The position numbers and the translations under genes were made by a program. The notes under the pieces were generated by a model. It did not search any database, was not told where the DNA came from, and worked only from the letters and a program-made list of their open reading frames with translations. Of a DNA stretch of 36,908 bases, positions 3,122-36,908 are shown in pieces. Numbering within the stretch: the stretch's first letter is position 1; each line of letters starts with the position of its first letter. This DNA comes from Chloroflexota bacterium (GTDB lineage Bacteria; Chloroflexota; Limnocylindria; Limnocylindrales; CSP1-4): positions 68,779-105,686 of the forward strand of contig JANYJG010000005.1 in assembly GCA_025358515.1 (NCBI GenBank), read 5' to 3'.

Positions 3122-3134
3122 GTCGCCTCTCCGA

Positions 3135-4181: not shown

Positions 4182-4185
4182 CGGC

Positions 4186-4386: not shown

Positions 4387-4515
4387 TTGATTGATTTCTC
4401 CTTGTCGCTCAGGCGTGGAGCCCGAGGGTTCAGCCGGTTAAGGGCGCCGGGGCGCGGCTAGTCGCTCCGTGACGGGGTACGGCAAAGCATACCCTAGCGG
4501 GGCCGACGCGCGAGT

Positions 4516-5110
4516 CTACTTGCTCTTAGCCCCGCCGTCATCCACGAACTGGCGCAGCCCCTCAAGACGCGGATCGATGCCCTCGTCGGGATGGTCGTGG
4601 GGACCGCTCCCCAGTTCCAGACCGCAGACCATGCACAGGCCGGGGCAATCTTCACGGCAGAGCGGCGCAATCGGCTCGGCCAGCTCGATGGCGTCCCGGA
4701 CGGCGCCCTCCAACTCCAGCTCGTGGTGATCGGTCAGGCGCAGGGCATCCGGTTCGGTGGCTGTATCGACAGGCTGGCCGCTGACCGGGTCGATTACCGG
4801 GAGTGCCTCTTCGTCGATCTCAATCTCAACCGGCCAGTCCAGGTCGCGCAGACAGCGGCTGCAAGTCTGGGCGATCCCCGTGCTGAGTCGCGCGTTGACG
4901 AACAGACCGCGGTTGGTCCGGGTCAGTCGCAGGCGACCGGACAGGTCACGCGTTTGGCGCAGTCCCTCCACCATGTCCATGGGCGGCGCGGTGATTTCCA
5001 GATCGCGCAACGTTCCGATGGGTTCGGCAAGTAGACCCGCGACGTTGAAGGTGAGCGCGTCAGCCGCGGATTGGCTGGGTTGTGCCCGATTGGTCGTACT
5101 CGTCGAGTTC
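4516..5110 (-). CDS. YceD/DUF177 family protein (5' boundary uncertain, see findings)
   Basis: ALTFNVAGLLAEPIGTLRDLEI...CSRCLRDLDWPVEIEIDEE...PIAPLCREDCPGLCMVCGLELGSGPHDH, with cysteine motifs typical of DUF177; next to rpmF. Confidence 0.85.
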
Positions 5111-5593
5111 TCCCTCTTCGGTCTCGGCTTGGGGTTCTGCTGGAATCGCCCGTCGGTCGTCGAGAAGTTCGAGCCCGCGCCGGATCGTCTTGAGCGTCCG
5201 CATGACTTCAGCCTCGAGGCCCGAAAGAACCTCGGCGGAATAGTTGTCCGCACCCCGCATGACTTCGGCCGAATCGGATTCGGCCTGGCGAATGATCTCC
5301 TGGCTGATTTCCTCGGCTTGGCGGGTCAGCTCACGCTCCTCGATGAGGTACGTGGCCTGCTCTTGGGCCCGAGCCAGAATCTGCTCTGCTTCCGCGCGAG
5401 CCTGCTCTAGAAGTCGTTCCACTTCGGCGTTTACGCGCCTGGCAGACTTGATCTCCTCTGGGATAGTGACCCGCAGCTGATCGATGTACTCGAGGGCTTC
5501 CGCCTGATCGACGATCACGCTACTAGTCAAAGGAAGCCGCCGGCCATTCGCGACAAGCGCTTCCAGTCGCTCGATGAGGACGACGATATCGAT
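5060..5593 (-). CDS. Coiled-coil, ATP synthase subunit B/DivIVA-like protein between coaD and DUF177 (proposed extended start)
   Basis: Track ORF 5060-5530 (TTG start) extends upstream in frame to IDIVVLIERLEALVANGRRLP-LTSSVIVDQAEALEYIDQLRVTIPEEIKSARRVNAEVERLLEQARAEAEQIL...; AGGAGG at 5603-5608. Confidence 0.75.
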   Translation of the reverse strand: MDIVVLIERLEALVANGRRLPLTSSVIVDQAEALEYIDQLRVTIPEEIKSARRVNAEVERLLEQARAEAEQILARAQEQATYLIEERELTRQAEEISQEIIRQAESDSAEVMRGADNYSAEVLSGLEAEVMRTLKTIRRGLELLDDRRAIPAEPQAETEEGELDEYDQSGTTQPIRG

Positions 5594-5642
5594 CGGTCGG
5601 GCCCTCCTGGGGCAAAGTCTCGGAGGTTGCCGTTGTCGGTTG

Positions 5643-5648
5643 ATTATA
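5643..5648 (-). promoter_or_regulatory. Putative -10 box (TATAAT) for the coiled-coil/DUF177 genes
   Basis: Minus-strand GGCTATAATCA. TATAAT is a perfect consensus and contains the coaD stop codon. No strong -35 is visible. Confidence 0.45.
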
Positions 5649-6147
5649 GCCGGGCGGCGGGTGCCTCCAGATGCCGAACCACGGCAGGTGGAACCATCAG
5701 ACTCACATCGCCTCCGAAGGCGAAGATTTCCTTGACCAGGCTGGAACTCAAGTAGCTGTGCTCCAGCGCGGTCATGAAGAAGACCGTGTCTACCTGGGGT
5801 GCGAGTTTGCGGTTGGTGTGGGCCATCTGAAGCTCCGATTCGAAGTCGGAAACAGCGCGCAGACCGCGCACCACGAACGTCGCCTCGAGACGGCGGCAGA
5901 AGTCGACGGTCAGGCCTTCGAACGATTGCACCTGGATGCGGCTCGCCACGTCGACAGGGCAGGATTCAGCCACGGCCTCGCGAATGACCGCCAGACGTTC
6001 TTCGGTCGTGAAGATCGGACCGGTCTTGTTCGGATTGACCAGCACCGCGAACACGACTTGGTCGAAGACGGCACATGCCCGCGTGATCACGTCGAGGTGA
6101 CCATAGGTGATGGGATCGAACGAGCCCGGATACACGGCGATCTTCAC
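5644..6147 (-). CDS. coaD: Phosphopantetheine adenylyltransferase
   Basis: MKIAVYPGSFDPITYGHLDVITRACAVFDQVVFAVLVNPNK...FVVRGLRAVSDFESELQMAHTNRKLAPQVDTVFFMTALEHSYLSSSLVKE. Confidence 0.97.
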   Translation of the reverse strand: MKIAVYPGSFDPITYGHLDVITRACAVFDQVVFAVLVNPNKTGPIFTTEERLAVIREAVAESCPVDVASRIQVQSFEGLTVDFCRRLEATFVVRGLRAVSDFESELQMAHTNRKLAPQVDTVFFMTALEHSYLSSSLVKEIFAFGGDVSLMVPPAVVRHLEAPAARL

Positions 6148-6749
6148 CTGGTCTCTCCTTTGACCCCAATCACTTCGGCGTCCGACCGACGATAGAACGT
6201 CAGGGCAGTCTCCCCAAAGCGCCGGTTACGAACCGATGCTAGCAGTCCCACCGGATCGGGTGGCGGCGTGCGCCAGAAATGCTTCGCGACAACCCACGCC
6301 GTTGGACTGAGGGTCGGCGCCGGGGCCGCGGCCAGCCGAGCCAACGCTTTATCCAGCAGGCCCGTTTCAGCGTAGGGCGGATCCAGGAGCACAAGGTCGA
6401 AGGGGCCGTCCGATGGCGCCCGATCCGCCAAGTATGCAAGGACATCCGCCCGAATTACCGTCCCACGATCCGCCAACCGGGTTCGGGTTAGGTTTTCGCC
6501 GATGATCCGCACGGCGATCGAGTCACATTCCACGAAGACGGCCCGGGCCGCGTCGCGCGACAAAGCCTCGATCCCACCCGCGCCGGATCCGGCGAAGAGG
6601 TCCAGCACGGCGGCGCCGCGCAGGTCCGGCTCCAGGATCGCGAACAGGGTTTGCTTGACGCGATCGGCGAATGGCCGCGTGCCCTCGCCGGGGGCAAGCA
6701 AACGCAGTCCCCTGGCTGTTCCGGCGATGACCCTGCCGGCTTCGCTCAT
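6144..6749 (-). CDS. rsmD: 16S rRNA (guanine966-N2)-methyltransferase RsmD
   Basis: RVIAGTARGLRL...TRPFADRVKQTLFAILEPDLRGAAVLDLFAGSGAGGIEALSRDAARAVFVE...DLVLLDPPY, with the DPPY motif. Confidence 0.94.
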   Translation of the reverse strand: MSEAGRVIAGTARGLRLLAPGEGTRPFADRVKQTLFAILEPDLRGAAVLDLFAGSGAGGIEALSRDAARAVFVECDSIAVRIIGENLTRTRLADRGTVIRADVLAYLADRAPSDGPFDLVLLDPPYAETGLLDKALARLAAAPAPTLSPTAWVVAKHFWRTPPPDPVGLLASVRNRRFGETALTFYRRSDAEVIGVKGETR

Positions 6750-9139
6750 GGTTTGGCCACGCGGCGCGTGGTGCTTCGCGTGGTGCGTTGCGGGGTCGCG
6801 GGTTTGGCCGCGGGTGTGACGGGCGACTCGTCGTCACTCGGGGTCGCGTCGGCGACGTCCGCCAGAACCTCGCCCGCACCGACCCGGGCCAGCCAGCCGC
6901 GGTCCAATTCCACCGCCAGAGCCTCGTTGCCGGGCCGCAGCGCGCCAGACTCGTCCACGAGACCCTCCGCCACCTCCCTGGCCAGCGCGGCCCGCTCCCG
7001 ATCCCGCGGATCGCGCAGCGAGGCAATCCGCAGTGTCGGCAGGCCGCTCTGGTTCAGCCCCAGTAGCTCACCCTCACGGCGCAACTCGAGATCCAGTTCG
7101 GCCAGTTCGAAACCGTCGTCGTGTGTCGCCAGCGCGTTCAGCCGAGCCCGAGCCGTCTCGTCCAACGAATCGGACACCAGAACGCAGTACGACTGCGCCT
7201 CGCCGCGACCCACCCGACCCCGCAACTGGTGGAGCTGGGCCAGCCCGAAGCGGTCCGCGTCCAAAATCAGCATTACCGTCGCCTCGGGGACGTCTACGCC
7301 GACCTCCAGAACAGTGGTTCCGACGAGCACGTCCAGCTCGCCCCGGCGGAATAGGTCCATCGTCGCGTCCCGAACCGCGGCCTTCAACTGGCCGTGAACG
7401 ACGCCGATGCGCGGCGCCGGCTGCGCCTCCAAACCGGCCCCAGCCGCCGCCTCGGCCAGCTGCGCCGGCAGGGCCGCGGCCACCTCATCGGCGGACCGCG
7501 CAGCGGTTTCCTCATCCTCCTCGACGAGCGGAACCACAACGAAGGCCCGATGGCCGGCTCGCACCTCGCGGACGATGAGCGGGTATGCACCCTTGCTGGC
7601 GTCTCCGGCTACGCCTGCCAGATCCGCGAAGCGACGGATGCCCGTTCCAATGCGCAGCCGCCCGGCCGGTGGTGTCCGTAGGTCCGAGACGTCGAGGTCG
7701 GACAACAGCAGCTGGCCCAGCGTTCTTGGGATGGGCGTCGCCGTCATCAGCAGAACGTGAGGTGAGCGCCCTTTGGCCCCCAGTGCCTCACGCTGAGCAA
7801 CGCCGAATCGATGCTGCTCATCGACCACAGCCAACGCCAGGTCGGCGAACTTGACCGATTCGGTTACCAGAGCGTGGGTGCCGACCACGATGCGGCCGAC
7901 CGTCAGGCCCAGCAGACCGTCTCCAACCGTCGGAGCTGCAATGGCCTCTAGAGCCTCCTTCTTCTGCGCCGCCGGCAACGAGCCGGTGAGGAGCGTCACG
8001 TCGTGGCCCAGCGGGTGCACCAGGTGACGCAGGGCGACCGCGTGTTGGCGAGCGAGCAGGTCCGTCGGCGCCAGCAGCGCGCCCTGGCGGCCCGCATCCG
8101 CCACAAAGGCCAGCGCCAGGGCCGCCACGGCTGTCTTGCCGGAACCCACGTCACCCTGGAGCAGCCTCATCATGGGCCGCGGTCGCGACAGGTCGGCGAC
8201 GATTTCTACGACCGCGGCGGCTTGGTCCGGCGTCAGCAGTGCGTTCTGGGTTGTGCCGGTCCTGGCCCGCACCTGCTCGGTCAGGGCATCCTCCACCAGA
8301 CCGACGGCCTCAGCGACACGCTTCGGGTCAACCGTCACGGGATCGCCGATGGCCCAGCGGCGCTGCCTGTCGCGAGCCACCATGCCAACCTGCAATGCCA
8401 GCAGCTCGTCGAAGCCGAGGCGGGCGAGCGCGGCGTCGCGAAGGGCGAAGTCGTCCGGATAGTGGGCGTTCTCCAGCGCTGCGACGATGCCCATCGAAGG
8501 CCCGGGCATGTACTCGGGGTAGGTCGCGCCGACAACGTCTAGCGCCTGGCGAATCGCCCGCCGCAACGTGACTGCCGTTAGACCCGCGCTCAGGCGGTAC
8601 ACCGGCACGATCCGCCCGGCATGGAGAAGCTCGGTTCCGTCTTCCGGCTGGAAGTCGGCATTGTCGAATGAAGTGATGAAGCCGCGCCGCCGGATCTTGC
8701 CGCTGATCACGATCCACTGGCCCTCGCTCAGCCGGGACTTGATGTAACGGCGCCCGAACCAGTTGGCCTCCACGTCTCCGGTGTCATCGCCCAGGTACAC
8801 CGTCGTCCGCTCGACGTGTCGCCGGAATGTCGGCGCAACCCTGATGCCGCGGACCTGGAGACGCGCGCTGGCACGCTCTCCTTCCTCTATCCCCGACAAG
8901 TCCCGGGCCGTGCTCAGTTCCCGCAGGTCGTCGTACCGGCGAGGGAGATGGAACAGCAAGTCCCGAACGGTCCGGATCCCCAAGCGCGAGCCGGCGCGCC
9001 GAAGCGCGAGGGCGCCGACGATGCCGCTGTCCCCTATCGGTGTATCGAGCTGGACTGGCCCGCGGGGTCGCTTGGCGGCCCTGGCCGCCGATTCGCGCGC
9101 CGGGCCGCCCGGAGAATCCACCGACCCCCGCCTGGCCAT
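6746..9139 (-). CDS. recG: ATP-dependent DNA helicase RecG
   Basis: RRYDDLRELSTARDL wedge-domain region; LLQGDVGSGKTAVAALA; VVDEQHRFGVAQRE; LLMTATPIPRTL; HQLRGRVGRGEAQSYCVLVSD. Confidence 0.97.
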   Translation of the reverse strand: MARRGSVDSPGGPARESAARAAKRPRGPVQLDTPIGDSGIVGALALRRAGSRLGIRTVRDLLFHLPRRYDDLRELSTARDLSGIEEGERASARLQVRGIRVAPTFRRHVERTTVYLGDDTGDVEANWFGRRYIKSRLSEGQWIVISGKIRRRGFITSFDNADFQPEDGTELLHAGRIVPVYRLSAGLTAVTLRRAIRQALDVVGATYPEYMPGPSMGIVAALENAHYPDDFALRDAALARLGFDELLALQVGMVARDRQRRWAIGDPVTVDPKRVAEAVGLVEDALTEQVRARTGTTQNALLTPDQAAAVVEIVADLSRPRPMMRLLQGDVGSGKTAVAALALAFVADAGRQGALLAPTDLLARQHAVALRHLVHPLGHDVTLLTGSLPAAQKKEALEAIAAPTVGDGLLGLTVGRIVVGTHALVTESVKFADLALAVVDEQHRFGVAQREALGAKGRSPHVLLMTATPIPRTLGQLLLSDLDVSDLRTPPAGRLRIGTGIRRFADLAGVAGDASKGAYPLIVREVRAGHRAFVVVPLVEEDEETAARSADEVAAALPAQLAEAAAGAGLEAQPAPRIGVVHGQLKAAVRDATMDLFRRGELDVLVGTTVLEVGVDVPEATVMLILDADRFGLAQLHQLRGRVGRGEAQSYCVLVSDSLDETARARLNALATHDDGFELAELDLELRREGELLGLNQSGLPTLRIASLRDPRDRERAALAREVAEGLVDESGALRPGNEALAVELDRGWLARVGAGEVLADVADATPSDDESPVTPAAKPATPQRTTRSTTRRVAKP

Positions 9140-9142
9140 TGC

Positions 9143-11077
9143 CTACTCGGCCGCTATCAGGAAGCGGTAGTGAGGCTGCCCACCGGCGATGACCTCGACT
9201 TCCACGTTTGTGCGCCACTCGCCAATGCGCGCGGCCACAGCGTCCGCGTCGTCGTTTTCGACTCCGGCACCGTAGTACACCGAAATAAGCTCGAAGCCCG
9301 GTTCCAGCGCCTCCAGGGCTGCCAGAATCGCTTTCACCGAATCGTTGTTTACCGCCAGAAGACCGTCATCCGGATCGAGCACGATGGTCTGGCCTTTGCG
9401 GACCTTGTGGCCGCCGACCACGGCGTCTCTGACGGCCTCAGTGACCTGCAGCGTCTGCACCGCTCGCCCGGCCATGGTCATGACTTCCGCGTTGGCCGTG
9501 GCATCGCGATTGGGGTCCAGGGCAAGCAGAGCGGCGAAACCCTCGGCCGCATTCCGGGTCGGGACCACGCGGACCTTGTGCGTGGTCAACTCCGAGGCCT
9601 GACGCGCCGCCAACAGGACATTCGGGTTGTTGGGCAGGAGCAGGATCTCATCGGCGTGGATCCGCTCCACGGCATCGAGCAGCTCGCCCGTGGAGGGGTT
9701 GTTGCTCTGCCCTCCTCGAACGACTGCAGCGACACCGTATGAGGCGAATATACGGGCCAGGCCGTCTCCGGCAGTGACCGCGACCACAGCCAGCCGCGCC
9801 GGCGCCATGGACTCCAACGACGTGTCGTCCTGGGCGGCGCCGCCGGTCGGGCCCCCGAGTCCGTTTCCGTCCGACCCGGCGGAGCCACTCGATGCAGGGC
9901 CGCCGGTCGAGGCTGGTCGGTAGGTGCCGATGTCGACGTGCGGACGTCCGTCGAGGTGGCCAGCGTGACCGAACGATTCGCGATGGCCCTGAGGTTCCAC
10001 GCGCGCGCCCTCCGACATGCCGGCGGCCTGAGGGGTGCCAACCCCTGACTCCGTGTGGCGTTCCATGACACCCTGAGCCTGCGCGTCGAGGTTCTCCACC
10101 GTGATCCGAGTCAGCGACCCGAGGCCCAGACCCATGGCGATGACCAGATCGGGTCGATCGTTGTGGATGTGGACTTTCAGCGATCGCGCGTCACCGGCCA
10201 CCAGGACCGATTCGCCGATCCCCTCCAGGGCGGCCCGTAGCCCCTCCACGTCGATCAGCGTCGCACGTGACTGCAGCATAAACATCGTCTCGTAGCCGAA
10301 CCCCTCGTTGGCGGTCGGCGACGCTGGTGCGGTCGGCTGCGACGCTGGTGCGGCCGGCTGCGACGCTGGTGCGGGCCGCGTGACGTCCGGTTGCGACGCG
10401 ACGGCCGCCGATCCGACCTTTATCCCGGCGCTCGTGTGCGACCGCAAATACAACAGCGTTCCCTCCAGGAGGTAGTAAAGGCCCTGACCGCCGGCATCGA
10501 CAACGCCCGCGTCACGAAGCACCGGCAGCAGCGACGGCGTTCGGGCCACGGCCTCGCGGGCTCCGTCGACGGCCGCCGTAAGCACGTCCTGCAGGTCTCC
10601 GCCCTCGTCAGCGGCAGCGACGGCGGCTTCCGACGCTTCCCGGATAACGGTGAGGATCGTGCCTTCGACCGGCTTGACGACCGCCTTGTAAGCGGTAGCG
10701 GTTCCCTGGTTCAGGGCACGCGCCAACTCCTGGCCCCCAAACGTGTGCCTGCCACCGAGTCCCTCCGCCATACCTCGGAAGATCTGCGAAGAAATCACGC
10801 CGGAATTGCCTCGAGCGCCCATCAGCGCCCCAAAGCTGATCGCGGCGGCCACCCGCTCCGCCGACCACTCCGACAGTCGCGCCTTGGCGAGACTACTTTC
10901 CACCTCGGCCAGAGCTGCCCGTACGGTCGCCAGCATGTTGCTGCCGGTATCGCCGTCGGGCACAGGGAAGACGTTCAGGGCGTCGACCTCGTCAACGTGG
11001 GCGGCCAGGTTGTCCACCGCGGCCCTTAACGCCGCCAGCAGCCCGGCTCCATCGCCGGATCGACGCGTCATCGGCAT
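9143..11077 (-). CDS. DAK2/DhaL-domain protein (FakA/YloV-like fatty acid kinase family)
   Basis: NVFPVPDGDTGSNMLATVRAAL...FGALMGARGNSGVISSQIFRGMAEGLGG is the DAK2 signature; encoded between recG and asp23/rpmB. Confidence 0.9.
   Translation of the reverse strand: MPMTRRSGDGAGLLAALRAAVDNLAAHVDEVDALNVFPVPDGDTGSNMLATVRAALAEVESSLAKARLSEWSAERVAAAISFGALMGARGNSGVISSQIFRGMAEGLGGRHTFGGQELARALNQGTATAYKAVVKPVEGTILTVIREASEAAVAAADEGGDLQDVLTAAVDGAREAVARTPSLLPVLRDAGVVDAGGQGLYYLLEGTLLYLRSHTSAGIKVGSAAVASQPDVTRPAPASQPAAPASQPTAPASPTANEGFGYETMFMLQSRATLIDVEGLRAALEGIGESVLVAGDARSLKVHIHNDRPDLVIAMGLGLGSLTRITVENLDAQAQGVMERHTESGVGTPQAAGMSEGARVEPQGHRESFGHAGHLDGRPHVDIGTYRPASTGGPASSGSAGSDGNGLGGPTGGAAQDDTSLESMAPARLAVVAVTAGDGLARIFASYGVAAVVRGGQSNNPSTGELLDAVERIHADEILLLPNNPNVLLAARQASELTTHKVRVVPTRNAAEGFAALLALDPNRDATANAEVMTMAGRAVQTLQVTEAVRDAVVGGHKVRKGQTIVLDPDDGLLAVNNDSVKAILAALEALEPGFELISVYYGAGVENDDADAVAARIGEWRTNVEVEVIAGGQPHYRFLIAAE
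10319..10381. repeat. Three tandem ~21-bp units inside the DAK2 gene
   Basis: Plus-strand units cgacgctggtgcggtcggctg / cgacgctggtgcggccggctg / cgacgctggtgcgggccgcgt, encoding an (x)APASQP linker on the minus strand. Confidence 0.85.
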
Positions 11078-11087
11078 GCTCGCACGG

Positions 11088-11531
11088 TCACCGCTTAGAG
11101 CGGCCTCTCGCTGCCGTCTCCTCCGCGCCTGCTTCAGCCGGCAACGGCTCTACCTCGGTAACCTCTATTTCGTGCGCCCTTTCGACGGCGGCGGGCAGGT
11201 GACGCAATCCATCGACGTGGATGGCGAGCGTCGCAACCTCCACCCCGACGGCCTGACGCAGCGAATAGCGGACGGCCGAATCGACCTGACGAGCGACCTC
11301 CGCGACCGGGACACCGAAGGCGACGGTCACATACAAGTCCAGGATCAGGCCACCATCGTTGGACAGTCGAATACCCGACCTATCGAGGCCGAGCCAGCGC
11401 AGCAGCCGTCGCGAAAAAGACGGATCGGCAAAGCCGGTCACGCCATAACTGCTCTGGACGGCTGTCCGGACGATATCGGCGATGGCTCGGCGGGTCACGA
11501 TTGACCGGCCTGCCACCGAACGCTTGGACAT
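11088..11531 (-). CDS. Asp23/Gls24 family protein (second copy)
   Basis: VTRRAIADIVRTAVQSSYGVTGFADPSF...DGGLILDLYVTVAFGVPVAEVARQVDSAVRYSLRQAVGVEVATLAIHVDGL. Confidence 0.82.
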   Translation of the reverse strand: MSKRSVAGRSIVTRRAIADIVRTAVQSSYGVTGFADPSFSRRLLRWLGLDRSGIRLSNDGGLILDLYVTVAFGVPVAEVARQVDSAVRYSLRQAVGVEVATLAIHVDGLRHLPAAVERAHEIEVTEVEPLPAEAGAEETAARGRSKR

Positions 11532-11569
11532 ACGTGCGCGACCTCCGAGTCTGGGAGGCTGAGACGGTG

Positions 11570-11578
11570 TGCTATCAT
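11570..11578 (+). promoter_or_regulatory. Putative extended -10 (TGCTATCAT) upstream of rpmB
   Basis: tgctatcatac about 60 nt before the rpmB ATG; an identical 11-mer lies upstream of rpsF. Confidence 0.5.
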
Positions 11579-11638
11579 ACCGCCCCGGTCGTCCCCGGTT
11601 GGGGTTGCCTTCATTTACTACGTATTCGAGAGGACCTT

Positions 11639-11836
11639 ATGGCTCGCTCCTGTGCTGTCTGCGGGAAGGTCTCAATGGACGGCTTCAACCCGCAGTCGTC
11701 CGGAATGAACCGGGTCCGCGCACATCGTCGCTACCAGCCGAACCTGCAGAAGACCACGATCCAGGTCGGCGGCAGGCCCGTCAAGGCACTTGCCTGTACG
11801 CGCTGTCAGCGCACTCTTTCCCGCGCCGCTCACTAG
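11639..11836 (+). CDS. rpmB: 50S ribosomal protein L28
   Basis: MARSCAVCGKVSMDGFNPQSSGMNRVRAHRRYQPNLQKTTIQVGGRPVKALACTRCQRTLSRAAH. ATG at 11639 with upstream GAGAGGA; divergent from asp23. Confidence 0.95.
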   Translation: MARSCAVCGKVSMDGFNPQSSGMNRVRAHRRYQPNLQKTTIQVGGRPVKALACTRCQRTLSRAAH

Positions 11837-11935
11837 AACACCCCGCCGGGTCTTCCGGCCAGCGCACCTTCGCGGCGTCGAGCCTCAGGCTCGGCGCCGA
11901 TTGCGTTTTCGGGGCCTTAGGCGCGCCGCCCAATG

Positions 11936-12412
11936 TCATTCTTGGGTAGAAGCCTTGGGCAGGATGGCTAATTCGTCGCTGTCCAGCCAGATCGTGAACG
12001 GGCCGTCGTTTACGAGGTCCACCTCCATGTGCGCCCCGAATCGGCCCCGCTCCACTGCCACGCCCCCAGCGGCCATGGCGTCACAGAAAGCGAGGTACAG
12101 TCGCTCGCCAAGCACCGGCCCGGCGGCACCCCTGAAGGACGGTCGGCGCCCCTTGCGGGCATCCGCATAGAGCGTGAACTGACTGACCACCATGGCCGCG
12201 CCCCCGACGTCGGAAATGGACAGATTCGTCAGGCCGTGTTCGTCGGCGAAGATGCGCAGCCCCACGACCCTGGCCGCAAGCGCCGCCGCAACTCTTTCGT
12301 CATCCTTGGGGGCCACGCCGAGCAGGATCAGTAGCCCGGCCCCGATGGCTCCGACGCGCTGTCCGTCGATCCGGACTTGCGCGCTCGATACTCGCTGAAG
12401 AAGCGCCCGCAT
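11936..12412 (-). CDS. dtd: D-aminoacyl-tRNA deacylase
   Basis: MRALLQRVSSAQVRIDGQRVGAIGAGLLILLGVAPKDD...GGAAMVVSQFTLYADARKGRRPSF. Confidence 0.96.
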   Translation of the reverse strand: MRALLQRVSSAQVRIDGQRVGAIGAGLLILLGVAPKDDERVAAALAARVVGLRIFADEHGLTNLSISDVGGAAMVVSQFTLYADARKGRRPSFRGAAGPVLGERLYLAFCDAMAAGGVAVERGRFGAHMEVDLVNDGPFTIWLDSDELAILPKASTQE

Positions 12413-12422
12413 CCGCCGGGCC

Positions 12423-13724
12423 TCAGCGGCTCACTAAGCCGGCCGCGCCCCGCCAAAGGCCGCCCAGAAGGGCAAGCCATGGGACGAGGTACAGGGCACT
12501 CTGCGAGCCGCCGAGCCAGCCCATGGTGTTCATGCCATAGGCAAACAGGGCCCCGACACTCGCCACGACCAGGCCTTGGATCACTAGCTCCCAGCGCACG
12601 TGCCGGCCGAGGCGGCGCAAGGCGCCGACCTCGCCTTCGTCCTCGGCCTCCACGACGGCCTCGATTTCCTCGTCGGCAACCTGCCCGATGAAGCGCCTCG
12701 CCCACCGAGGTCCGTGCAGGACGGCTACATAGGCGGCGACGGCATACGCGACTCCGCCGACGATATCGAAGACCCAATGCTCGCCCAGGTAGACGATGGA
12801 GAACCACACGCATGCCGTGTAACCGAGCATCAACCAGCCGGCCCGCGGGAAGGCCCGCCGGGCGAACAGGAAGGCCAGGAAGGGGTAAGCGGCGTGCAGC
12901 GAGGGGAAGGCCGCCACGTCGTTGGAGCTGATGCTGTATAGCGAGTACGAGTAGAAGTAATTCCCGAAACCGAATGTGTGAGCCAGGCCCTGAAATCCCG
13001 TGTCTCGAAGGTGGAGGATGCCGCTGGCGTAATTGAACTTCTCGGCCCACCACGGCGGCGCAACGGGCAAGAGCAGATAGGTCACGAACGCGGCCATGGA
13101 CAGAACGATCAGCGCGGCCACAAAGTCGTAATAGTGGCGCCGCTGGTGGATCCACAGCAGGAAGCCGGCTGCCAGCGGCAGCGGGAAGTGAAGGAAGTAG
13201 AAGACAACCGATATGGTGGCCAGGTTGTCGTAGACAGGATTGGCCTGGGTCCACACCGGGCCGGAATGGAAGAGGCCCTGCAGCCAGACCGTGGGCAGAC
13301 TACCCAGGCCGATGACTCTCTCGATCGAGATCACGTCGGTGACGTGAATCGGCAAGCCGAACTTGTCGGCATAGCCGCGCATCAGTTCATAGGCGAAGAA
13401 CAGCGCCAGGAACGGGATCCAGTCGCGCACGAACAGCTTGCCGCGGCCCAGCAGCAAGGCCGCGAGGCCGAACGCAACAACAACGAGTTCCGGAGTGACG
13501 GAGATGCCCCGCGCGATCATGAGGAACGACAGCAGCACGGCGTAGGACGCAACCGCGGCCAGCAGCACCTTGTCGTTACGGCGACCAAGGTGGGCGTGGG
13601 GTACGCCGGAGGCGCCATCTATGGCGTCCGAATCGATGGTCCTCGGTGGCTCTTCCGGCCCGTCCGGCATCGCGCCGCTGGCGGCGGGCATGACGGCGCC
13701 GCCTGAGGGCGTTTCGTCAGTCAT
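12423..13724 (-). CDS. PAP2-superfamily / inositolphosphotransferase-like integral membrane phosphatase
   Basis: Multiple TM stretches; AAFPSLHAAYPFLAFLFARRAFPRAGW and GEHWVFDIVGGVAYAVAAY match PAP2 catalytic motifs (PSLHA, GEHWxxDxxxG). Confidence 0.85.
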   Translation of the reverse strand: MTDETPSGGAVMPAASGAMPDGPEEPPRTIDSDAIDGASGVPHAHLGRRNDKVLLAAVASYAVLLSFLMIARGISVTPELVVVAFGLAALLLGRGKLFVRDWIPFLALFFAYELMRGYADKFGLPIHVTDVISIERVIGLGSLPTVWLQGLFHSGPVWTQANPVYDNLATISVVFYFLHFPLPLAAGFLLWIHQRRHYYDFVAALIVLSMAAFVTYLLLPVAPPWWAEKFNYASGILHLRDTGFQGLAHTFGFGNYFYSYSLYSISSNDVAAFPSLHAAYPFLAFLFARRAFPRAGWLMLGYTACVWFSIVYLGEHWVFDIVGGVAYAVAAYVAVLHGPRWARRFIGQVADEEIEAVVEAEDEGEVGALRRLGRHVRWELVIQGLVVASVGALFAYGMNTMGWLGGSQSALYLVPWLALLGGLWRGAAGLVSR

Positions 13725-14427
13725 GCCGTTTAGCCTCCAACCGAGCCGCCCTGAAGCCCTCGTCGGCGAGGGTCTTTATGCGGGTTATCTCATCGCTGAT
13801 GTCGCGACCCTTCTTCCATAGCGTGGATCCGACGACCAGCACGTCCGCGCCCATCCTGCCGCACATGGCCGCCGACTGGCGATTGACGCCGCCATCCACG
13901 TGCACCTCGCCCGGAACTGCCCGTCCGGCAAAGATCGTGTGCGCCGGCAGGATCTTCTGGGCCGCATCCGCCATGAACTCCTGACCACCGAAACCGGGCT
14001 CAACGGTCATGACCATGACGATGTCAAGCAGATCGCGAAATGGATCCAGGGCACTGAGCGGAGTGGCGGGCTTTATAGCCAGTCCCGCCGCCCGTCCGGC
14101 CTTGCGAATCTTGATCAGGGTGGGCTCGATGGGCTCCTCGACCTCCACGTGGAAGGTGATGGAGTCGCAACCGGCGTCGATGAATTGGTCCATGTAGCGG
14201 CCCGGCTCGGAGATCATGAGGTGAGCGTCGAAGGGCTGTTTGCCGATCTTCCGAAGGCGCTTGATGATGCCGGGCCCAAGAGTGATGTTGGGCACGAAGT
14301 GGCCGTCCATGACGTCGATGTGGATCCGGTCCGCGCCGGCCTTGAGAACCTTGCGGCATTCGGCAGACAGGCTGGACAGGTCCGAGTCCAGGATGCTGGC
14401 GGATACCAGAACTCGTGACTTACTCAA
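13717..14427 (-). CDS. rpe: Ribulose-phosphate 3-epimerase
   Basis: VSASILDSDLSSL...GADRIHIDVMDGHFVPNITLGPGIIKRLRK...VMTVEPGFGGQEFM...VHVDGGVN. Confidence 0.97.
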   Translation of the reverse strand: MSKSRVLVSASILDSDLSSLSAECRKVLKAGADRIHIDVMDGHFVPNITLGPGIIKRLRKIGKQPFDAHLMISEPGRYMDQFIDAGCDSITFHVEVEEPIEPTLIKIRKAGRAAGLAIKPATPLSALDPFRDLLDIVMVMTVEPGFGGQEFMADAAQKILPAHTIFAGRAVPGEVHVDGGVNRQSAAMCGRMGADVLVVGSTLWKKGRDISDEITRIKTLADEGFRAARLEAKRHD

Positions 14428-15767
14428 CGCGACCGGCCCTTGGGTGTGGCCCCGGCGACGGCGTTAGCCAGCGCGGCCGGCAGGTTCTCCGCGCTGCGAT
14501 CACCGCGCAGGGCGGCCTCGCTCTGGCGGACGATGGCATCGTGGCGGCGCGCAACCGCAACCGGCGTGGGCTCCCCTGCCCGATTCGCGGCCAGCTGGCC
14601 GCAGGCGGCCCCGGCGTCCTGGCCTCGATTGGCGCGGATAGTGACGCCGATGCCACCCTGTTTGACTCGCGCGGCGAACTCGGCGACCCGCACGGGATCG
14701 CTGCCCTGCCAGGGCGTGTGCGCAACCGGGTTCATCGGAATCAGGTTCACGTGCGCTAGGTCCCCTCGCAGGAGTTTGGCCAGGGCGTCGGCATCGACTT
14801 CTGAATCGTTCACGCCGGAAATCATCACGTACTCGTAGCTGACGCGCCGGCCGGTCACGCGCGCATGGTCCCTGGCCGCGGCAATGACTTCCGCCACGGG
14901 CCAGCGACGGTTCAGCGGCACGAGGACGTCCCGTAGCGGGTCTCGGGCGGCATGGAGACTGATCGCCAGGGTGAACTGCGGTCCCAGGGCCGTCAGACGC
15001 CGGATCCCTGGCACCACGCCCGACGTCGAGACCACCACGTGGCGTGCCCCCAGACCGAACCGATCCGGGTCCGCCAGCGCGGCCACGGCCTCCAGGACAC
15101 GGTCCAGGTTGAGCAGCGGCTCGCCCATGCCCATGAAGACGACGTTGGTCAGGTGAGCTCCGGGCCTCGTCTTGGCCATGTGCCGGGCTGCGTGCCGGAC
15201 CTGATCCAGGATCTCGGCGGTGGTCAGGTCGCGTCCAAACCCAAGCTCACCGGTGGCGCAGAACGGACATCCGACGGCGCATCCGGCCTGGCTCGAGATG
15301 CACAAGGTGTGGCGTTCGCGATGGTCCGGCCGGCCGCCGGGGCCCTGGAGACCGCGGGCCGGATAGTGCATCAGCACGGACTCGATGAGGGCGCCGTCGG
15401 AAAGCAGGTGCAGCGTCTTCTCGGTCAGGCCGCCATCGGCGACCTTGATTTCGTCGGCAACGATGGTGTCCAGGCGAAACGCCCGGTCAAGACGCGTCCT
15501 GAGCGCAGCCGGCAAAGTCAGCAGCTCGTCGGCCGAAGTGGCCAGTTGACGCCACACGCCGTCGCGAATCTGGGCGGCGCGGTATGCCGGCTGACGCTCG
15601 TCCTTTAGCCACCGTTCCAGCTGGCTCTGATCGAGCCCGGCCAGTCCCGGGCGCGAATCGATAGCGGCGTGGGCAGGCCTCGGCCGGGGCGCGGGAGTCG
15701 CGGAGTCGGCGGGCGGCTCGCCGATTGGGTTGCCGATCGGATTACCGGTGTCATTGGGAAGGCTCAC
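14424..15767 (-). CDS. rlmN: 23S rRNA (adenine2503-C2)-methyltransferase RlmN
   Basis: Radical-SAM CISSQAGCAVGCPFCATGELGFGRDLTTAEILDQV; GMGEPLLNLDRVL; VSTSGVVPGIRRL; LAISLHAARDPLRDVLVPLNRRWP. Confidence 0.97.
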   Translation of the reverse strand: MSLPNDTGNPIGNPIGEPPADSATPAPRPRPAHAAIDSRPGLAGLDQSQLERWLKDERQPAYRAAQIRDGVWRQLATSADELLTLPAALRTRLDRAFRLDTIVADEIKVADGGLTEKTLHLLSDGALIESVLMHYPARGLQGPGGRPDHRERHTLCISSQAGCAVGCPFCATGELGFGRDLTTAEILDQVRHAARHMAKTRPGAHLTNVVFMGMGEPLLNLDRVLEAVAALADPDRFGLGARHVVVSTSGVVPGIRRLTALGPQFTLAISLHAARDPLRDVLVPLNRRWPVAEVIAAARDHARVTGRRVSYEYVMISGVNDSEVDADALAKLLRGDLAHVNLIPMNPVAHTPWQGSDPVRVAEFAARVKQGGIGVTIRANRGQDAGAACGQLAANRAGEPTPVAVARRHDAIVRQSEAALRGDRSAENLPAALANAVAGATPKGRSR

Positions 15768-30483: not shown

Positions 30484-30918
30484 TCAGTCGATGGCGGCGG
30501 GGGCCGCGTCGGTCTCCGATTCGTCGATGAGCTCAACCTCTTCGTCCGGCTCATCATCGTCGACCGGCGGGGCGACCTCGGCGTCGGACTCGGCATCGGA
30601 CTCGGCGTCGCGACCGCGCGAAGCCTTGACCGGGCGCTCGACGCGGGTAACGAGATGACGCAGGACCTCTTCGCTGATTAGCAGGCCCCGCTCGAGTTCG
30701 GAGATCGCCGTCGCCGGCGCTTCGAACAGGATGACGTAGTAGGAGCCCTCGCGATGATGATCGATGGGATAGGCCAGTCGGCGACGGCCCCAGGGAGCCT
30801 GCTTGACGATCTGGCCGCCTCCGGCTGCGATGGCACGGGCGGTTCGCTCGAGTGTGGCCTGAACCTTGTCATCCGCAAGGTCCGGACGGAGTACGAGCAT
30901 GAGTTCGTAACGGCGCAT
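30484..30918 (-). CDS. rpsF: 30S ribosomal protein S6 with acidic C-terminal tail
   Basis: MRRYELMLVLRPDLADDKVQATLERTARAIAAGGGQIVKQAPWGRRRLAYPIDHHREGSYYVILFEAPATAISELERGLLISEEVLRHLVTRVE. The start at 30918 fits S6; the track start at 31008 is too long. Confidence 0.95.
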   Translation of the reverse strand: MRRYELMLVLRPDLADDKVQATLERTARAIAAGGGQIVKQAPWGRRRLAYPIDHHREGSYYVILFEAPATAISELERGLLISEEVLRHLVTRVERPVKASRGRDAESDAESDAEVAPPVDDDEPDEEVELIDESETDAAPAAID

Positions 30919-30998
30919 GCGCCTATAACCCCTTCCTATGGGTGTGCCCCGATTCGCGAGCGGCAACGCCGGTCGGTCGGAGCCGAAAGGACCCGCGT

Positions 30999-31007
30999 AT
31001 GATAGCA
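30999..31007 (-). promoter_or_regulatory. Putative extended -10 (TGCTATCAT) upstream of rpsF
   Basis: Minus-strand TTTGCTATCATACGCG about 80 nt before the rpsF ATG; same 11-mer TGCTATCATAC as upstream of rpmB. Confidence 0.5.
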
Positions 31008-31246
31008 AACGGCCGCCCCGGACGCTTCACAAGGCAGGCCGCCCCAATATTGCCGAGGGCGTGGCGGGCGGTCCGGCCCAAATTCGGTACCACTGGCTGT
31101 CGCCAAAAGGCACCACAGGCCCCTTTGTACTCCTCTGAGCCGACCTCCGCGGTCATACCATCGTATTTGGCGTCGACCATGTTCGGCGGCCGGTCAATGG
31201 AGACGCAGCCGCAACGGACACTGCCGTCGTAATGAAAGGAGGCAAC

Positions 31247-31396
31247 GTGTTCTTGTTCCTTCGCCGCGGGGAAGGACAGGGTCTCGCGGAATACGCACTC
31301 ATTCTTTCTCTTATCGCGATCCTGGCCATCACCGCTGTGGCGTTCATCAGCGGCCGACTTGACTCAATGCTCAGCCAGATCGGGCGCAGTTTATAG
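31247..31396 (+). CDS. Flp/Fap (Tad-type) pilin, 49 aa; not in ORF track
   Basis: GTG start with AAAGGAGG upstream: MFLFLRRGEGQGLAEYALILSLIAILAITAVAFISGRLDSMLSQIGRSL*. Flp hallmark G|QGLAEY followed by a hydrophobic helix. An in-frame ATG at 31232 is the alternative start. Confidence 0.88.
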   Translation: MFLFLRRGEGQGLAEYALILSLIAILAITAVAFISGRLDSMLSQIGRSL

Positions 31397-31489: not shown

Positions 31490-31544
31490 TGGTGCCGGAG
31501 CAGGGGCTCGAACCCTGATGCCCTTGCGGGCCGCGGAGTTTAAG
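31490..31544 (-). pseudogene. Truncated 3' half of tRNA-Leu(UAA), anticodon loop to CCA; candidate att remnant
   Basis: Minus strand: CTTAAAC TCCGC GGCCCGCAAGGGCAT CAGGG TTCGAGC CCCTG CTCCGGC A CCA, i.e. anticodon loop, 3' anticodon stem, class II variable arm (GCCC-GCAA-GGGC), full T-arm, acceptor 3' strand and CCA. Expected 5' partners GCGGA and GCCGGAG are absent upstream. Confidence 0.8.
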
Positions 31545-32185
31545 GGCGCACCAGATGGGTCGCAGGGGTCCGTCAGCGTCCAACCTGAGCGTGAACGCGT
31601 CCGATTTGGCGCCTGTGCATCCGCCTGTGGTCGTCGGCGAAGATGCCAGCGAAGCTGCCACGAAACGCTTGCCAGGTCGTCATCTTGGAGGTTCCACTGG
31701 AGTAGAGCCGAGGCTTTCCAACTGAGATACGAGATCGAGCCGACCGGCTTAGCTGACCTCGGGAAGGTTGGATAGCCCGGAGTCGAGAGGAGTCGGGCCG
31801 ACACTATACGGGTGAAGGTGCGAGCCGCCGCCATTGCGACCGAACACGTCGGCTAGGCGACGGGCTATTAACGCAGCAGGGCGATTGAGTCGGCCGGTAG
31901 GCTTCGCCGATGGGGAAGACGCCGTCATGGCCTGGATCGCGACTCGGCCAAGCCCGTCGGTGTCGGGTCGCACCGCATATCTGCCGATCGACGAGGATTT
32001 CCCACCGCCCTGCACACTATCGTCCGGAATGACGGCCGCAAATGCGCTAGGCTGCGCGTCCGTCCTGGTCTAAACGACGCAGGGCGAGGCAGGACCGGGA
32101 AGGGCCACAGAGGCGCTCCGGGTTAGCCCGAAAACGATACGGCAGCAGCCCGGGAGGGGGCGTCTGCGCGGCGCCCGAATATGCG

Positions 32186-35100
32186 ATGCGTCTAGGGCAT
32201 TTCCGGATCGGTCACATCCTCTTGAGCACGGCCTCGTTCGCGGCGATCATCACGCTCGTGGCCACGAGCTTCGCGGTGGTGCCGGCGGTGGCGGCGGACA
32301 CGTCGGACGCCTCGGGTGCCGTCCTGCCGTACCAGGCCAGCGGCTACCACTATCTCGTGGTGCCGATCGCCGGCGGTCCTGCCGGGTTCCAGGATCCAGG
32401 TTTCGACGAGTCGGCCTGGAGCACTGGCCAGGGTGCCTTCGGTTCCGGTGGATACTGCACGCCCCATCAGCTCGACCGTACCAACTGGCCGGTCGGCACC
32501 GACATCCTCGTCCGTCACGATATCGACCTGCCAGCGGGCACGACCAACGTCGTCGTCAACGGTGGCATCGACAACGACATCTTTATGTACTGGAACGGTC
32601 AGCTCCTTGGGACGCCGCGTGTCCACGAGGGCTGCGCCGCCCCCGGCGACTTCTCGATCGCCGTTCCGCAGGACGACCTGGTGGCGGGCAAGAACGTCCT
32701 CGCCATCCGCGCTCGCGACCGTGGGGATCAGAGTTGGCTCGACGTCAGCGTCACCGCAGTGGCACCCAAGGAGAGCCCGGCCCCGGTTGCGAAGGCTGGC
32801 GCCGACATTTCGGTGACCGAGGGTTCGGTCGTCACGCTCGATGGTCGGGCCTCGACTGACCCTGCCAGCAAGCCGCTCACCTACGCCTGGTCGCTGATCA
32901 GTCGCACCGGGCCGGCAGTCACTCTGTCGGCTTCGACCGGCTCCACGGCCAGCTTCCAGTCTCTCGACGACGGCCTCTACCGCTTCCTTCTCACGGTCAG
33001 CAACGGCGAGAAGAGCGCGACCGACGAAGTGGACGTCAAGGTGACAAACGTGGCACCGGTCCTCTCGGTCCAAGCCGAGCCCGCGTATGCCCACGGGGTC
33101 GCCCTGATCACCACGAGCTTCACCGACGCCGGCATCCTCGACACGCAGTCCGGTGCCATCGACTGGGGCGACGGCAGCACGCAGAAGAACCTGCCATTGG
33201 CCGTCCAGGGCGCGGGCTGGGGAACGCTCGTCGCGTCCCATGTTTATGCCAGCGCCGGCAGCTATAGCCCCAAGATCACCATCACCGACGACGACGGCGG
33301 ATCGGCGTCCGGCTCGGTTGCGTCGTACCACGTCATCGACCCGGTCGCGATGTGGGCGAACAGCAGTGCATCCGGCAACGGCATCGATTGGACGGGCGGT
33401 TCGGCCACAATCTCCGGGCTGACCCACGCGAACTCGAGCATTCGTATCCGGGGCGCTGCCAAGACCTTTACTGGCCCGACCGAATACGCGGGCGCCCTCG
33501 ACATCGCCGGTAACAGCCCGACCTTCACCCCAGCCCCAGTCAAGACAGCGGTAAAGCCGCTGCCGATCGGGTACAACATGGCCGACTACCGCCCCGGCGG
33601 TCGGGCGGCGCGTGAGGCCGGCAGCGCCTACCACGACGCCTCGTCGAGCTGCGGCAAGAACGGCACCTGGCAGATCAATGGCCAGACGCTTACGTCCGGC
33701 ATCTACTACGCCAACTGCAGCGTCAAGCTCAACGGTCATCCCCTCGGCGGGACGATCACGCTCATCGCCGAAGGCGACATCACCGTCTCCGGATCGTCCG
33801 CCCAGTTCGACCCATATACCGACGGGCTGCTCTTCCTCTCGGGCAGCGGCTCCACTTCGGCGATCCGCGTCGACGCGGCCAAGTCGAGCTTCCTTGGCTA
33901 CAACTACGCCGCTTCGGGCAAGATCGTCCTGACCGGTTCGGGCAATACCTTCTATTGCGGCCTCCTGGCCAACCAGATCGACATTTCGGGCAACGACCTC
34001 AATGTACGCGGCTCCGGCTGCACCCGGCCCGTCCGCACCGTGGCCTCGCCGGCGCTGGTTCCCACGCCGGCAGTCACGCTCTCGGTCGATCACGCGGATG
34101 CCTTGCCGGGCGACCAGCTCCACTTCTCTGCGACCGTCTCCAACAGCGGCGCCACCCTGGTGGTGCCGGGCGTGATCGGTCTGGAGAACCTGGGCACCGC
34201 GTCGGTCAGCGTCACCGGGCACACCCTGGGCTTGCAGTACCTCTCGGTGGCCGACGGTGCCTGGCACAGCGTCCCGGGAACAATCACACCGGTCCTTCGG
34301 CCTAACGCCACAGCCGGCGTCACCTACTCCACGAGCGCTGACACCATCGACGGGACCAAGCTCGGCCCCGGAACACTCGCCTCGTGGAGCTTCGCACCCG
34401 TCGTGAAGCTGAACCCAACTGACGTCGTCATGCTGCTCGATCCCGCCCGAACGGCGGAGGTCCGGATCGTCTCGACCTTCACCACGGATCCGCCGACCGC
34501 TCCTGTCCGCCGGCTCTTCCGCTTCGGCGACGACGTCTCCACCCAACTCCGAACCCTCGGCGCGAGCGTGCGAAACGTCGCGCTGACCGTTGTGCCGCCG
34601 GTTGGCGACGCGAAGTCCTTCGACGCGAGCTCCGTGCCCGCCCTCGCCTCGCTCGCCCCGGGCGCGCAGGTGACGATCTCGCTCGATTCGGCCGTGCCCG
34701 GACCGGCGGCCCGCACAGCGGGTGAGAGCGACTCGGTCTATCTCGCCCGCATCACCTCGTTCGACCGTTCTGCCCTCACAGGAACGGCCTTCGCCCGCGC
34801 CGATGCCGGGATCGGCACCGTTGTGGCCCCGGCGGCCAATGCCACCGCGACTCGGCACGTGCCCGTGGTTCAGCTTGCGCTGAGCGGGCCGGGGAGCATC
34901 GAGCCAGGCAAGACCGCGGTCTATTCGTTGGCCTTCGCGAACGTCGGCTCCACCGACGCGAGCGGCATCGCGGTCACTGATTCCATCACAGGCGCAGGTT
35001 CATTGCCCGTCGTGGGTGCCCCCACCACGCTCGCGCCCGCAGAACGGACGACCGCGACCGCCTCGTACGCGGTCCCGGCCGACGCCGAGCCAACGATCCT

Positions 35101-36908
35101 GTCCGATTCGGGCAGTGCCACCTGGAAGGACGCCCGCGGCAACACCTACGGCCCGCTCGGCGGGGTCGTCTCGACCCGCGTCATTCCGGCCCGCAAGCTC
35201 ATCGTCACCAAGACCGACGTCTCCACGATCGATGCGGCAGGCCACGTCGTCGTCAACTACGACATCGCGATCACGAACATGGGCAGCCAATCGGTAACGG
35301 GCGTCGTCCTCACCGACAGCCCGGACCCGAACTCCACTCTCGTGTCCGGCTGGGTGAGCGCGAGCCAGGGCCTCGTGACCTCAGGTAACGGCTCCGGCGA
35401 CCACGCCGCAGGCGTGAACCTCGGCACGATTGCAAGTGGCGGCTCGGCAACCGTCGATCTCCGGGTGATCGTTACCGGCGCCCTTCCGGCGGGTGTCACC
35501 ACCATCGCCAATCAGGCGACCGTCAGCAGTAACGAGCTCGACCCGGTTCTCTCCGACGACCCAGACTACCCGGGTGCCTCGGATCCGACGCTGACATCGG
35601 TCTCCTCGTCCAGTGGCCCGGGTGGCTCTGGCGACTACGCGCATCCGAACATCGGCAGCCCCACGCCGCCAGATGGCTCCGTCGTAACGGCGCCGACTCT
35701 GATCAGCGTCCCGATCAGCGCTGACAGCTCCTTCACCCCCGCGTCCTGGGACATCTCGTACCGCCCCGCCGGCGGGACCGTCAACACCTCGATTGGCAAC
35801 GGCGATCTTGCGACGCCGGGCGCCGTTAGCGCGTCTGGCACCCTCGATCCGACGCGGCTTCCCAATGGCGTCTATCTAGTGACCGTGACGGCCCATGCGT
35901 CCGACGGCACGAACCAGGCGGCCACGACGAGTGTGATCGTCGATGGCAACCTCAAGCTCGGCCGCTACAGGGTCACCTACCAGGATGCGAACGTTCCGGT
36001 GGGCGGCATCCCGATCCAGGTTCTGCGCACCCATGACAGCTTCGACAAGACCAAGGGCGACTTCGGCATCGGCTGGCAGATGGCGCTCGGCAATTTCCGG
36101 GTCGAGGTTAGCCGACCGCTCGGTGCGGGCGGCTGGAGCCAGGAGGCCTTTGGCTGCGGCGCCGTCCTGTGCTCGATTCGCTACAAGAGCGCCATCGCCC
36201 ATTTCGTGACGGTGGTTTGGCCCGATGGCCATCAGGAGATCTTCGATCTCACGCCGCTCGATAGCAGCACATATCTGGGCGGCGTGTTCACCGCCACGGC
36301 GTTCACATCGCGAGCTGGGTCTACGTCCAAGCTCGAGGCCCTCGACAACTCGCTGATGTTCCTCGGGGACGGCAACCTCTCCGGCGTGGATTTCGGCAGC
36401 GGCGGCGCATACAACCCGACGCGCTTTCGCCTGACCGCCAAAGACGGCACAGTCTACGTCCTCGACACCGTCAGCGGCCTCGTTTCGGAGACCGACCGTG
36501 TCGGCAACAGCGTCACCGTCGACTCGGCCGGCATCCACTCGAGCCTCGGGCCCTCGATCACGTTCGTGCGCGACAGCGCCGGGCGGATCAACGAGCTCGA
36601 CAAGCCCGATGGCGCCAAGGTCACCTACGCCTACGACTCCGCGGGCAATCTCGGCTCGGTCACTGACGAGCGCAACAAGACAGTCACCTACCACTACGAC
36701 GCAGACCACAACCTGACCGAAACCCTCGACCCGGACGGGCATCCTCTGCGCTCCCTCACCTACTGGCCCGACGGGCGGCTCAAGACCGTGACCGACGGCG
36801 CCGGGAACGTGAGCACCATCACTCTCGATCCGAACGCCCGAACCGAGATAGTCACCGGTCCGGATCCGCGGCTGACCACGATCACCTCGATGAACCCACG
36901 CGGCGACA
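32186..36908 (+). CDS. Giant secreted multidomain protein: signal peptide, beta-sandwich-like N-domain, PKD-like domains, polymer-like beta region, DUF11-like repeats, RHS/YD-repeat shell (3' end outside window)
   Basis: Open frame from ATG 32186 to the window end (~1574 codons). MRLGHFRIGHILLSTASFAAIITLVATSFAVVPAVAADTSD (Sec signal); VTEGSVVTLDGRASTDPASKPLTYAWSLI...DGLYRFLLTVSNGEKSATDEVDVKV (PKD); LIVTKTDVSTIDAAGHVVVNYDIAITNMGSQSVTGVVLTDSP (DUF11); GIPIQVLRTHDSFDKTKGDFGIGWQM and DKPDGAKVTYAYDSAGNLGSVTDERNKTVTYHYDADHNLTETLDPDG (RHS/YD). Confidence 0.9.
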   Translation, partial: MRLGHFRIGHILLSTASFAAIITLVATSFAVVPAVAADTSDASGAVLPYQASGYHYLVVPIAGGPAGFQDPGFDESAWSTGQGAFGSGGYCTPHQLDRTNWPVGTDILVRHDIDLPAGTTNVVVNGGIDNDIFMYWNGQLLGTPRVHEGCAAPGDFSIAVPQDDLVAGKNVLAIRARDRGDQSWLDVSVTAVAPKESPAPVAKAGADISVTEGSVVTLDGRASTDPASKPLTYAWSLISRTGPAVTLSASTGSTASFQSLDDGLYRFLLTVSNGEKSATDEVDVKVTNVAPVLSVQAEPAYAHGVALITTSFTDAGILDTQSGAIDWGDGSTQKNLPLAVQGAGWGTLVASHVYASAGSYSPKITITDDDGGSASGSVASYHVIDPVAMWANSSASGNGIDWTGGSATISGLTHANSSIRIRGAAKTFTGPTEYAGALDIAGNSPTFTPAPVKTAVKPLPIGYNMADYRPGGRAAREAGSAYHDASSSCGKNGTWQINGQTLTSGIYYANCSVKLNGHPLGGTITLIAEGDITVSGSSAQFDPYTDGLLFLSGSGSTSAIRVDAAKSSFLGYNYAASGKIVLTGSGNTFYCGLLANQIDISGNDLNVRGSGCTRPVRTVASPALVPTPAVTLSVDHADALPGDQLHFSATVSNSGATLVVPGVIGLENLGTASVSVTGHTLGLQYLSVADGAWHSVPGTITPVLRPNATAGVTYSTSADTIDGTKLGPGTLASWSFAPVVKLNPTDVVMLLDPARTAEVRIVSTFTTDPPTAPVRRLFRFGDDVSTQLRTLGASVRNVALTVVPPVGDAKSFDASSVPALASLAPGAQVTISLDSAVPGPAARTAGESDSVYLARITSFDRSALTGTAFARADAGIGTVVAPAANATATRHVPVVQLALSGPGSIEPGKTAVYSLAFANVGSTDASGIAVTDSITGAGSLPVVGAPTTLAPAERTTATASYAVPADAEPTILSDSGSATWKDARGNTYGPLGGVVSTRVIPARKLIVTKTDVSTIDAAGHVVVNYDIAITNMGSQSVTGVVLTDSPDPNSTLVSGWVSASQGLVTSGNGSGDHAAGVNLGTIASGGSATVDLRVIVTGALPAGVTTIANQATVSSNELDPVLSDDPDYPGASDPTLTSVSSSSGPGGSGDYAHPNIGSPTPPDGSVVTAPTLISVPISADSSFTPASWDISYRPAGGTVNTSIGNGDLATPGAVSASGTLDPTRLPNGVYLVTVTAHASDGTNQAATTSVIVDGNLKLGRYRVTYQDANVPVGGIPIQVLRTHDSFDKTKGDFGIGWQMALGNFRVEVSRPLGAGGWSQEAFGCGAVLCSIRYKSAIAHFVTVVWPDGHQEIFDLTPLDSSTYLGGVFTATAFTSRAGSTSKLEALDNSLMFLGDGNLSGVDFGSGGAYNPTRFRLTAKDGTVYVLDTVSGLVSETDRVGNSVTVDSAGIHSSLGPSITFVRDSAGRINELDKPDGAKVTYAYDSAGNLGSVTDERNKTVTYHYDADHNLTETLDPDGHPLRSLTYWPDGRLKTVTDGAGNVSTITLDPNARTEIVTGPDPRLTTITSMNPRGD

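Follow-up and report, generated by a model that had tools for sequence, protein, structure and literature searches.

A displaced tRNA-Leu(UAA) 3' fragment as the integration scar of a small mobile element in a Chloroflexota genome

Introduction

Tyrosine integrases that target tRNA genes use an attP site holding a piece of the gene, so that integration rebuilds the gene and displaces its original tail (PMC4383910). A large class of such insertions is centred on the anticodon, with 2083 islands of this site type recorded by Islander (PMC4383910). The actinomycete integrative and conjugative elements (AICEs) are defined by an integrase, a Rep protein and a Tra protein of the FtsK/SpoIIIE type; the class was reported as confined to Actinomycetales, and a Frankia AICE whose integrase is truncated is still excised (PMC3218068).

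The locus described here belongs with these systems. When a small mobile element inserted into a leucine tRNA gene, the tail of that gene was displaced and remained as the tRNA fragment; as a scar it is of the textbook type. The best explanation, to which we assign a probability of about 0.95, is that a small integrative element inserted into the tRNA-Leu(UAA) gene at the anticodon loop by means of its own tyrosine integrase.

Results

The tRNA fragment and its intact counterpart

The window, that is, the whole stretch of 36,908 nucleotides that was analysed, corresponds to C170:68779-105686 of a draft genome (G000) of 264 contigs and 2.78 Mb with an estimated contamination of 5.8%. Its right edge is the end of contig C170, so that no island could have its far end inside it. 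The features considered are as follows.

30484-31008, minus strand: rpsF (ribosomal protein S6), native chromosomal flank (PF01250, E 2.4e-29)
31247-31396, plus strand: small Flp-type pilin gene, native chromosomal flank (read from the sequence)
31490-31544, minus strand: displaced tRNA-Leu(UAA) 3' fragment at the element/chromosome boundary, the fragment-side att site (55/55 identity to C28:32405-32459)
31545-31720, minus strand: conserved element end, the att arm beside the fragment (aligns with G001, G013, G015 and G011 at about 74-79% identity)
31637-31664, minus strand: probable arm-type integrase sites, tandem TGGCAGCTTCG / TGGCATCTTCG (putative role)
32186-36907, plus strand: giant RHS/YD-repeat surface protein gene, N-terminal 1574 aa with PKD, DUF11 and RHS repeats, element cargo (PF22352/PF18911, PF01345, PF05593)

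An earlier, sequence-only reading had recognised the 3' half of a class II tRNA at 31544-31490 on the minus strand, and its coordinates proved exact: the fragment starts at base 1 of the anticodon loop and runs through CTTAAAC (the loop), TCCGC, the variable arm, the T arm and the 3' strand of the acceptor to end exactly at CCA. Homology stops at the anticodon loop, as had been stated, with an unpaired GCGCC on the 5' side, and neither a complete tRNA nor a 5' half for the fragment was detected in the window by ARAGORN or Rfam. A search of the same genome returned a single further exact copy of the 55 bp, at C28:32405-32459, and this match is far beyond chance because of its identity of 55/55 (E 2.4e-22). 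The copy forms positions 33-87 of an intact tRNA-Leu(UAA) gene at C28:32373-32459.

A fragment with so clean a start in the anticodon loop, a possible site of introns and splits, might also work as one half of a tRNA gene that is split or holds an intron, the finding that the earlier reading had named as contradicting a scar. On checking, the window was found to be without a 5' half, a complete tRNA-Leu(UAA) gene with the identical 55 bp exists, and relatives with an empty site have one complete gene here; this candidate is ruled out by the intact gene, its probability being close to nil.

The scar reading placed an intact tRNA-Leu(UAA) with the same 55 bp to the right of the window. Such a gene was found, in a compatible orientation; it lies on a separate contig, C28, which is presumed to join C170. 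In two relatives (G001 and G008) the fragment and the other tRNA copy or part are both on single contigs.

Genes following the intact tRNA

Downstream of the intact tRNA-Leu(UAA), contig C28 carries, in this order, genes for an integrase, an excisionase-type protein, RepSA, an SCO3933-like protein, a DUF6188-like ORF and the C-terminal piece of an RHS protein. The tyrosine integrase gene (PF00589-type) begins about 165 bp past the CCA. The xis-like gene encodes 128 aa with an HTH and an excisionase-family domain (TIGR01764, HTH_17), and the next gene matches RepSA, the pSAM2 replication initiator, over positions 4-435 of 438 (PF20199) with one TAG inside. The SCO3933-like protein (159 aa) shows weak similarity, and the DUF6188 match, in the ORF just after the RHS end, is likewise weak. 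An integrase near the intact tRNA had thus been rightly predicted, and the xis-like and RepSA genes directly follow it, but both int and repSA are interrupted, by two in-frame stops and one, respectively, and for this reason the copy looks decayed. The integrase is open in G019 (94% identical) and G011 (75%), and RepSA genes are open in G011 and other relatives; the copy in the genome under study has therefore probably decayed.

With respect to the AICE definition, an integrase plus excisionase (PF00589-type, TIGR01764) and a replication protein of the RepSA/RepAM/Prim-Pol group (PF20199) are present. As to a Tra protein of the FtsK/SpoIIIE type, the sole match above the cut-off among the assembled contigs of the genome, which do not include the middle of the element, was the chromosomal FtsK; each of the 21 genomes of the genus has one strong FtsK, and the only other substantial match was on contig C25 of G012. 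Because no FtsK-type Tra was found for it in these sequences, the element is not classified as an AICE. Judged by its gene content, it appears AICE-like in integration and probably also in replication.

Empty and filled sites in relatives

Comparison of the locus with related genomes, which the earlier reading had proposed, yielded sites of both kinds, empty and filled. An uninterrupted run of genes for tRNA-Phe, Gly, Gln and Cys, an intact tRNA-Leu(UAA) and rpsF is present in G012 and in G031, a member of another genus. In G012, rpsF lies 565 bp from tRNA-Leu, and the aligned pilin flank adjoins the intact tRNA-Leu with matching DNA; the left side of the window, with rpsF and pilin, is thus native chromosome, as had been supposed. 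The arrangement in both genomes is that predicted on removing the element from the genome under study.

A filled site lies on a single contig in G001 (10380 to 15155), where the 5' part of the tRNA (with a scaffold gap) is followed by the remnant of an integrase, a fragment (tRNA positions 35-87) and rpsF, the two tRNA pieces spanning 4.8 kb. On an 11.8-kb contig of G008, both tRNA copies (1425 to 11760) flank a different element. In G013 and G015 the fragment starts from position 33 on the rpsF/pilin side, and in G011 both ends surround a 6.8-kb element on a single contig, with int, xis and RepSA open and a scaffold gap interrupting the fragment.

The element of about 10 kb in the tRNA-Leu site of G008 (L082:1425-11760) has an integrase 49% identical, an AAA_25 ATPase and weak matches to small and large terminases, and it resembles a phage satellite. 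A related integrase, of 48% identity, is found beside tRNA-Leu(CAA) in a Chloroflexi genome labelled palsa (L108:9785-11143).

Conserved ends of the element

The sequence beside the fragment on the element side (31545-31720) is kept in G001, G011, G013 and G015 and is therefore the element's own end. Within it, an 11-bp unit, TGGCAGCTTCG, is arranged in tandem about 95-120 bp outside the fragment, and it recurs in tandem at the other end, about 70-90 bp past the intact tRNA. The 16-mer TTCGTGGCAGCTTCGC (31649-31664) was found again in this latter interval on C28, where the unit occurs twice. These repeats are kept at both ends in relatives, and they are probably arm-type sites of the integrase.

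The conserved junction also bears on whether the fragment could be a random tRNA-derived duplication or an assembly chimera formed without any mobile element, as might be suspected in a draft metagenome assembly, tRNA repeats being known to break assemblies and N gaps lying within these very repeats in several relatives. Four genomes (G001, G011, G013 and G015) share the element-side junction, on its other side lies the chromosomal sequence that natively follows tRNA-Leu in G012, and the same base of the anticodon loop starts the fragments of several genomes. Such an artefact is accordingly very improbable.

The giant RHS gene and the continuity of the element

Between the fragment and the RHS gene lies a non-coding end sequence of about 640 bp, and the RHS gene itself runs open off the end of C170. 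The RHS piece on C28 is a C-terminal part of 442 aa that is also open at its contig end and carries PF05593 and TIGR03696; YD repeats (PF05593, also matched by the window piece) and the RHS-associated core precede a short variable tip, for which no Pfam family was matched. With C28 in reverse orientation, the RHS pieces at the two contig ends face each other, and the tRNA and its fragment then lie in the same sense. We infer that the two pieces form one gene and close one and the same element, which would leave at least 12 kb between tRNA and fragment (5.4 kb from C170, 6.6 kb from C28). The earlier placement of the giant RHS gene inside an integrated element is supported in that the gene lies to the right of the scar, while its RHS-to-RHS link to C28 is a presumed one.

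Alternatively, the scar would be real while the RHS gene of C170 and the RepSA and integrase genes of C28 represent two insertions, in a tandem array or composite island. No end overlap joining C170 to C28, or to the RHS contigs C43 and C60, was found, the RHS pieces of these extra contigs are mostly 72-87% identical to the C28 piece, and on contig C84 of G019 the integrase end of a Leu element adjoins a tRNA-Leu 3' fragment after non-tRNA sequence, as in a tandem array. Against this stand the facing RHS pieces of C170 and C28 and the match of the fragment-side end of G000 to that of G011, which a single contig links to int, xis and RepSA within 6.8 kb. Two insertions are thus unlikely, though they deserve more weight than a split tRNA or a chimera, and a single element remains the preferred reading.

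In the G019 case (L093:2232-2289), the fragment covers tRNA-Leu positions 30-87 and the sequence before it contains other GGTAGCA-type repeats; the arrangement could mark either two elements in tandem or an element in circular form. In the genome under study, RHS pieces lie on L101 (C43), L102 (C60) and L039:17019-18981 (C28) and are mostly 72-87% identical; together with the DUF6188-like ORF, they could possibly represent toxin and immunity cassettes of RHS type in tandem. That RHS regularly accompanies the element was not supported: no RHS gene was found in relatives' loci at the tRNA-Leu site, and the RHS homologues of six relatives lie in loci that are not beside the Leu fragment or element genes.

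Distribution of RepSA and exchange of integrases

In a phylum-wide, non-exhaustive sample of 400 genomes from 224 genera, RepSA was detected in four, all members of this Chloroflexota genus, within which 13 of 21 genomes carry it. Among close relatives, the records that bear a name describe Chloroflexi genomes with the label fen or palsa. In a plasmid collection, RepSA relatives came from actinomycetes only, at less than 60% identity, and among viral contigs no related element with RepSA or integrase was found.

Within the genus, RepSA is 80-83% identical between the tRNA-Leu and the tRNA-Cys elements, against about 49% for their integrases, and some RepSA genes accompany serine recombinases; the integrases have therefore seemingly been exchanged and the replication module kept. 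The RepSA genes beside serine recombinases (L144:8315-9792, L147:8356-9894 and L142:2254-4206) represent RepSA elements with a swapped integrase type, and one of these loci touches a tRNA-Pro 3' fragment (positions 45-77). On balance, we lean towards a family of RepSA-bearing integrative elements that lacks an FtsK-type transfer gene and has spread within one peatland Chloroflexota genus, holding its replication module, exchanging integrases (two tyrosine types and also serine recombinases) to reach different tRNA genes (those for Leu and Cys, and probably also those for Pro and Glu) and accommodating cargo such as RHS next to the displaced fragment.

Insertions in the neighbouring tRNA-Cys gene

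The adjacent tRNA-Cys gene offers a parallel, with displaced fragments starting at position 32, and the tRNA cluster is a double insertion hot spot. Fragments of tRNA-Cys 3' sequence were located in six relatives, with two in G007 (L083:3995-4039, L085:9486-9442, L095:8003-7959, L096:4944-4988 and 5578-5620, L097:12681-12658, and L086:9669-9654); the clear cases start from anticodon-loop position 32, and that of L086 comprises the last 16 bases only. In G004, G007, G010, G011, G016 and G017, element genes lie upstream of an intact tRNA-Leu by rpsF; these elements turned out to sit in the adjacent tRNA-Cys. In the genome under study, the stretch after tRNA-Cys (L039:11985-12140, equal to C28:31985-32140) contains GGTAGCAACGTGGTAGCAACA, which aligns with 46/64 identity to the G019 tRNA-Cys element at its integrase end; the GGTAGCAACGTGGTAGCAACA stretch appears to be what is left of a second element that once sat in this neighbouring gene.

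Discussion

A tyrosine-recombinase scar in the anticodon loop with an intact tRNA at the far end was the central proposal of the sequence-only reading, and it is borne out by the integrase, the identical 55 bp and the empty and filled sites. Integration and the ends of the element can be read directly from the identical 55 bp, the integrase beside the intact copy, the relatives' empty and filled sites and the conserved element ends. In the proposed course of events, the attP of the element would have carried positions 33-87 of tRNA-Leu(UAA), and the tyrosine integrase would have recombined it, at the anticodon loop, with the single tRNA-Leu(UAA) gene detected. Given such an attP, integration would have rebuilt a complete tRNA (on C28) and displaced the chromosome's own 3' fragment (31544-31490), which would end up beside pilin and rpsF. 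The resulting order would be intact tRNA-Leu, int, xis-like, repSA, SCO3933-like, RHS cassette(s), att arm and tRNA fragment. Judging from gene content, excision, replication and transfer would be expected, and movement might proceed by RepSA-type rolling-circle replication after excision; the present copy may now be stuck because int and repSA contain in-frame stops.

With the sides of the window assigned to chromosome and to mobile DNA, the giant RHS gene becomes readable as cargo. RepSA elements of the pSAM2 type are now placed in a Chloroflexota genus, after the class had been reported as confined to Actinomycetales, and, since they lack an FtsK-type Tra, one must ask by what means they move. 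As a scar the fragment is ordinary, and the element family is mildly new within a known kind, the element being unusual mainly for a RepSA otherwise known from Actinobacteria, the giant RHS gene and the broken mobility genes.

Like pSAM2-type AICEs (PMC3218068), the element has a tyrosine integrase in a tRNA gene, an excisionase-like gene, RepSA (PF20199) and an SCO3933-like protein; unlike them, it resides in a Chloroflexota genus, its int points against xis-rep, it carries RHS cargo, an FtsK/SpoIIIE-type Tra is lacking, and int and repSA contain in-frame stops. With RHS/YD-repeat polymorphic toxin loci it shares the long YD-repeat protein, the RHS core, the short variable tip, the downstream ORF weakly similar to DUF6188 and related RHS cassettes on other contigs, but here the gene is carried in the cargo position of an integrative element of the RepSA type and its tip is without a Pfam match. 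From the tRNA-gene islands of Islander (PMC4383910) nothing essential separates it, apart from its two ends being on two contigs. The block common to both ends, from the anticodon loop to CCA, places it in the anticodon-centred class, and the signature of these islands is present: an intact tRNA and a matching displaced 3' fragment (55/55, position 33 to CCA), which would stand in the same sense once the two contigs are joined, an integrase inside the interval beside the intact copy (with stops here, open in G019 and G011), and an uninterrupted site in relatives (G012 and G031).
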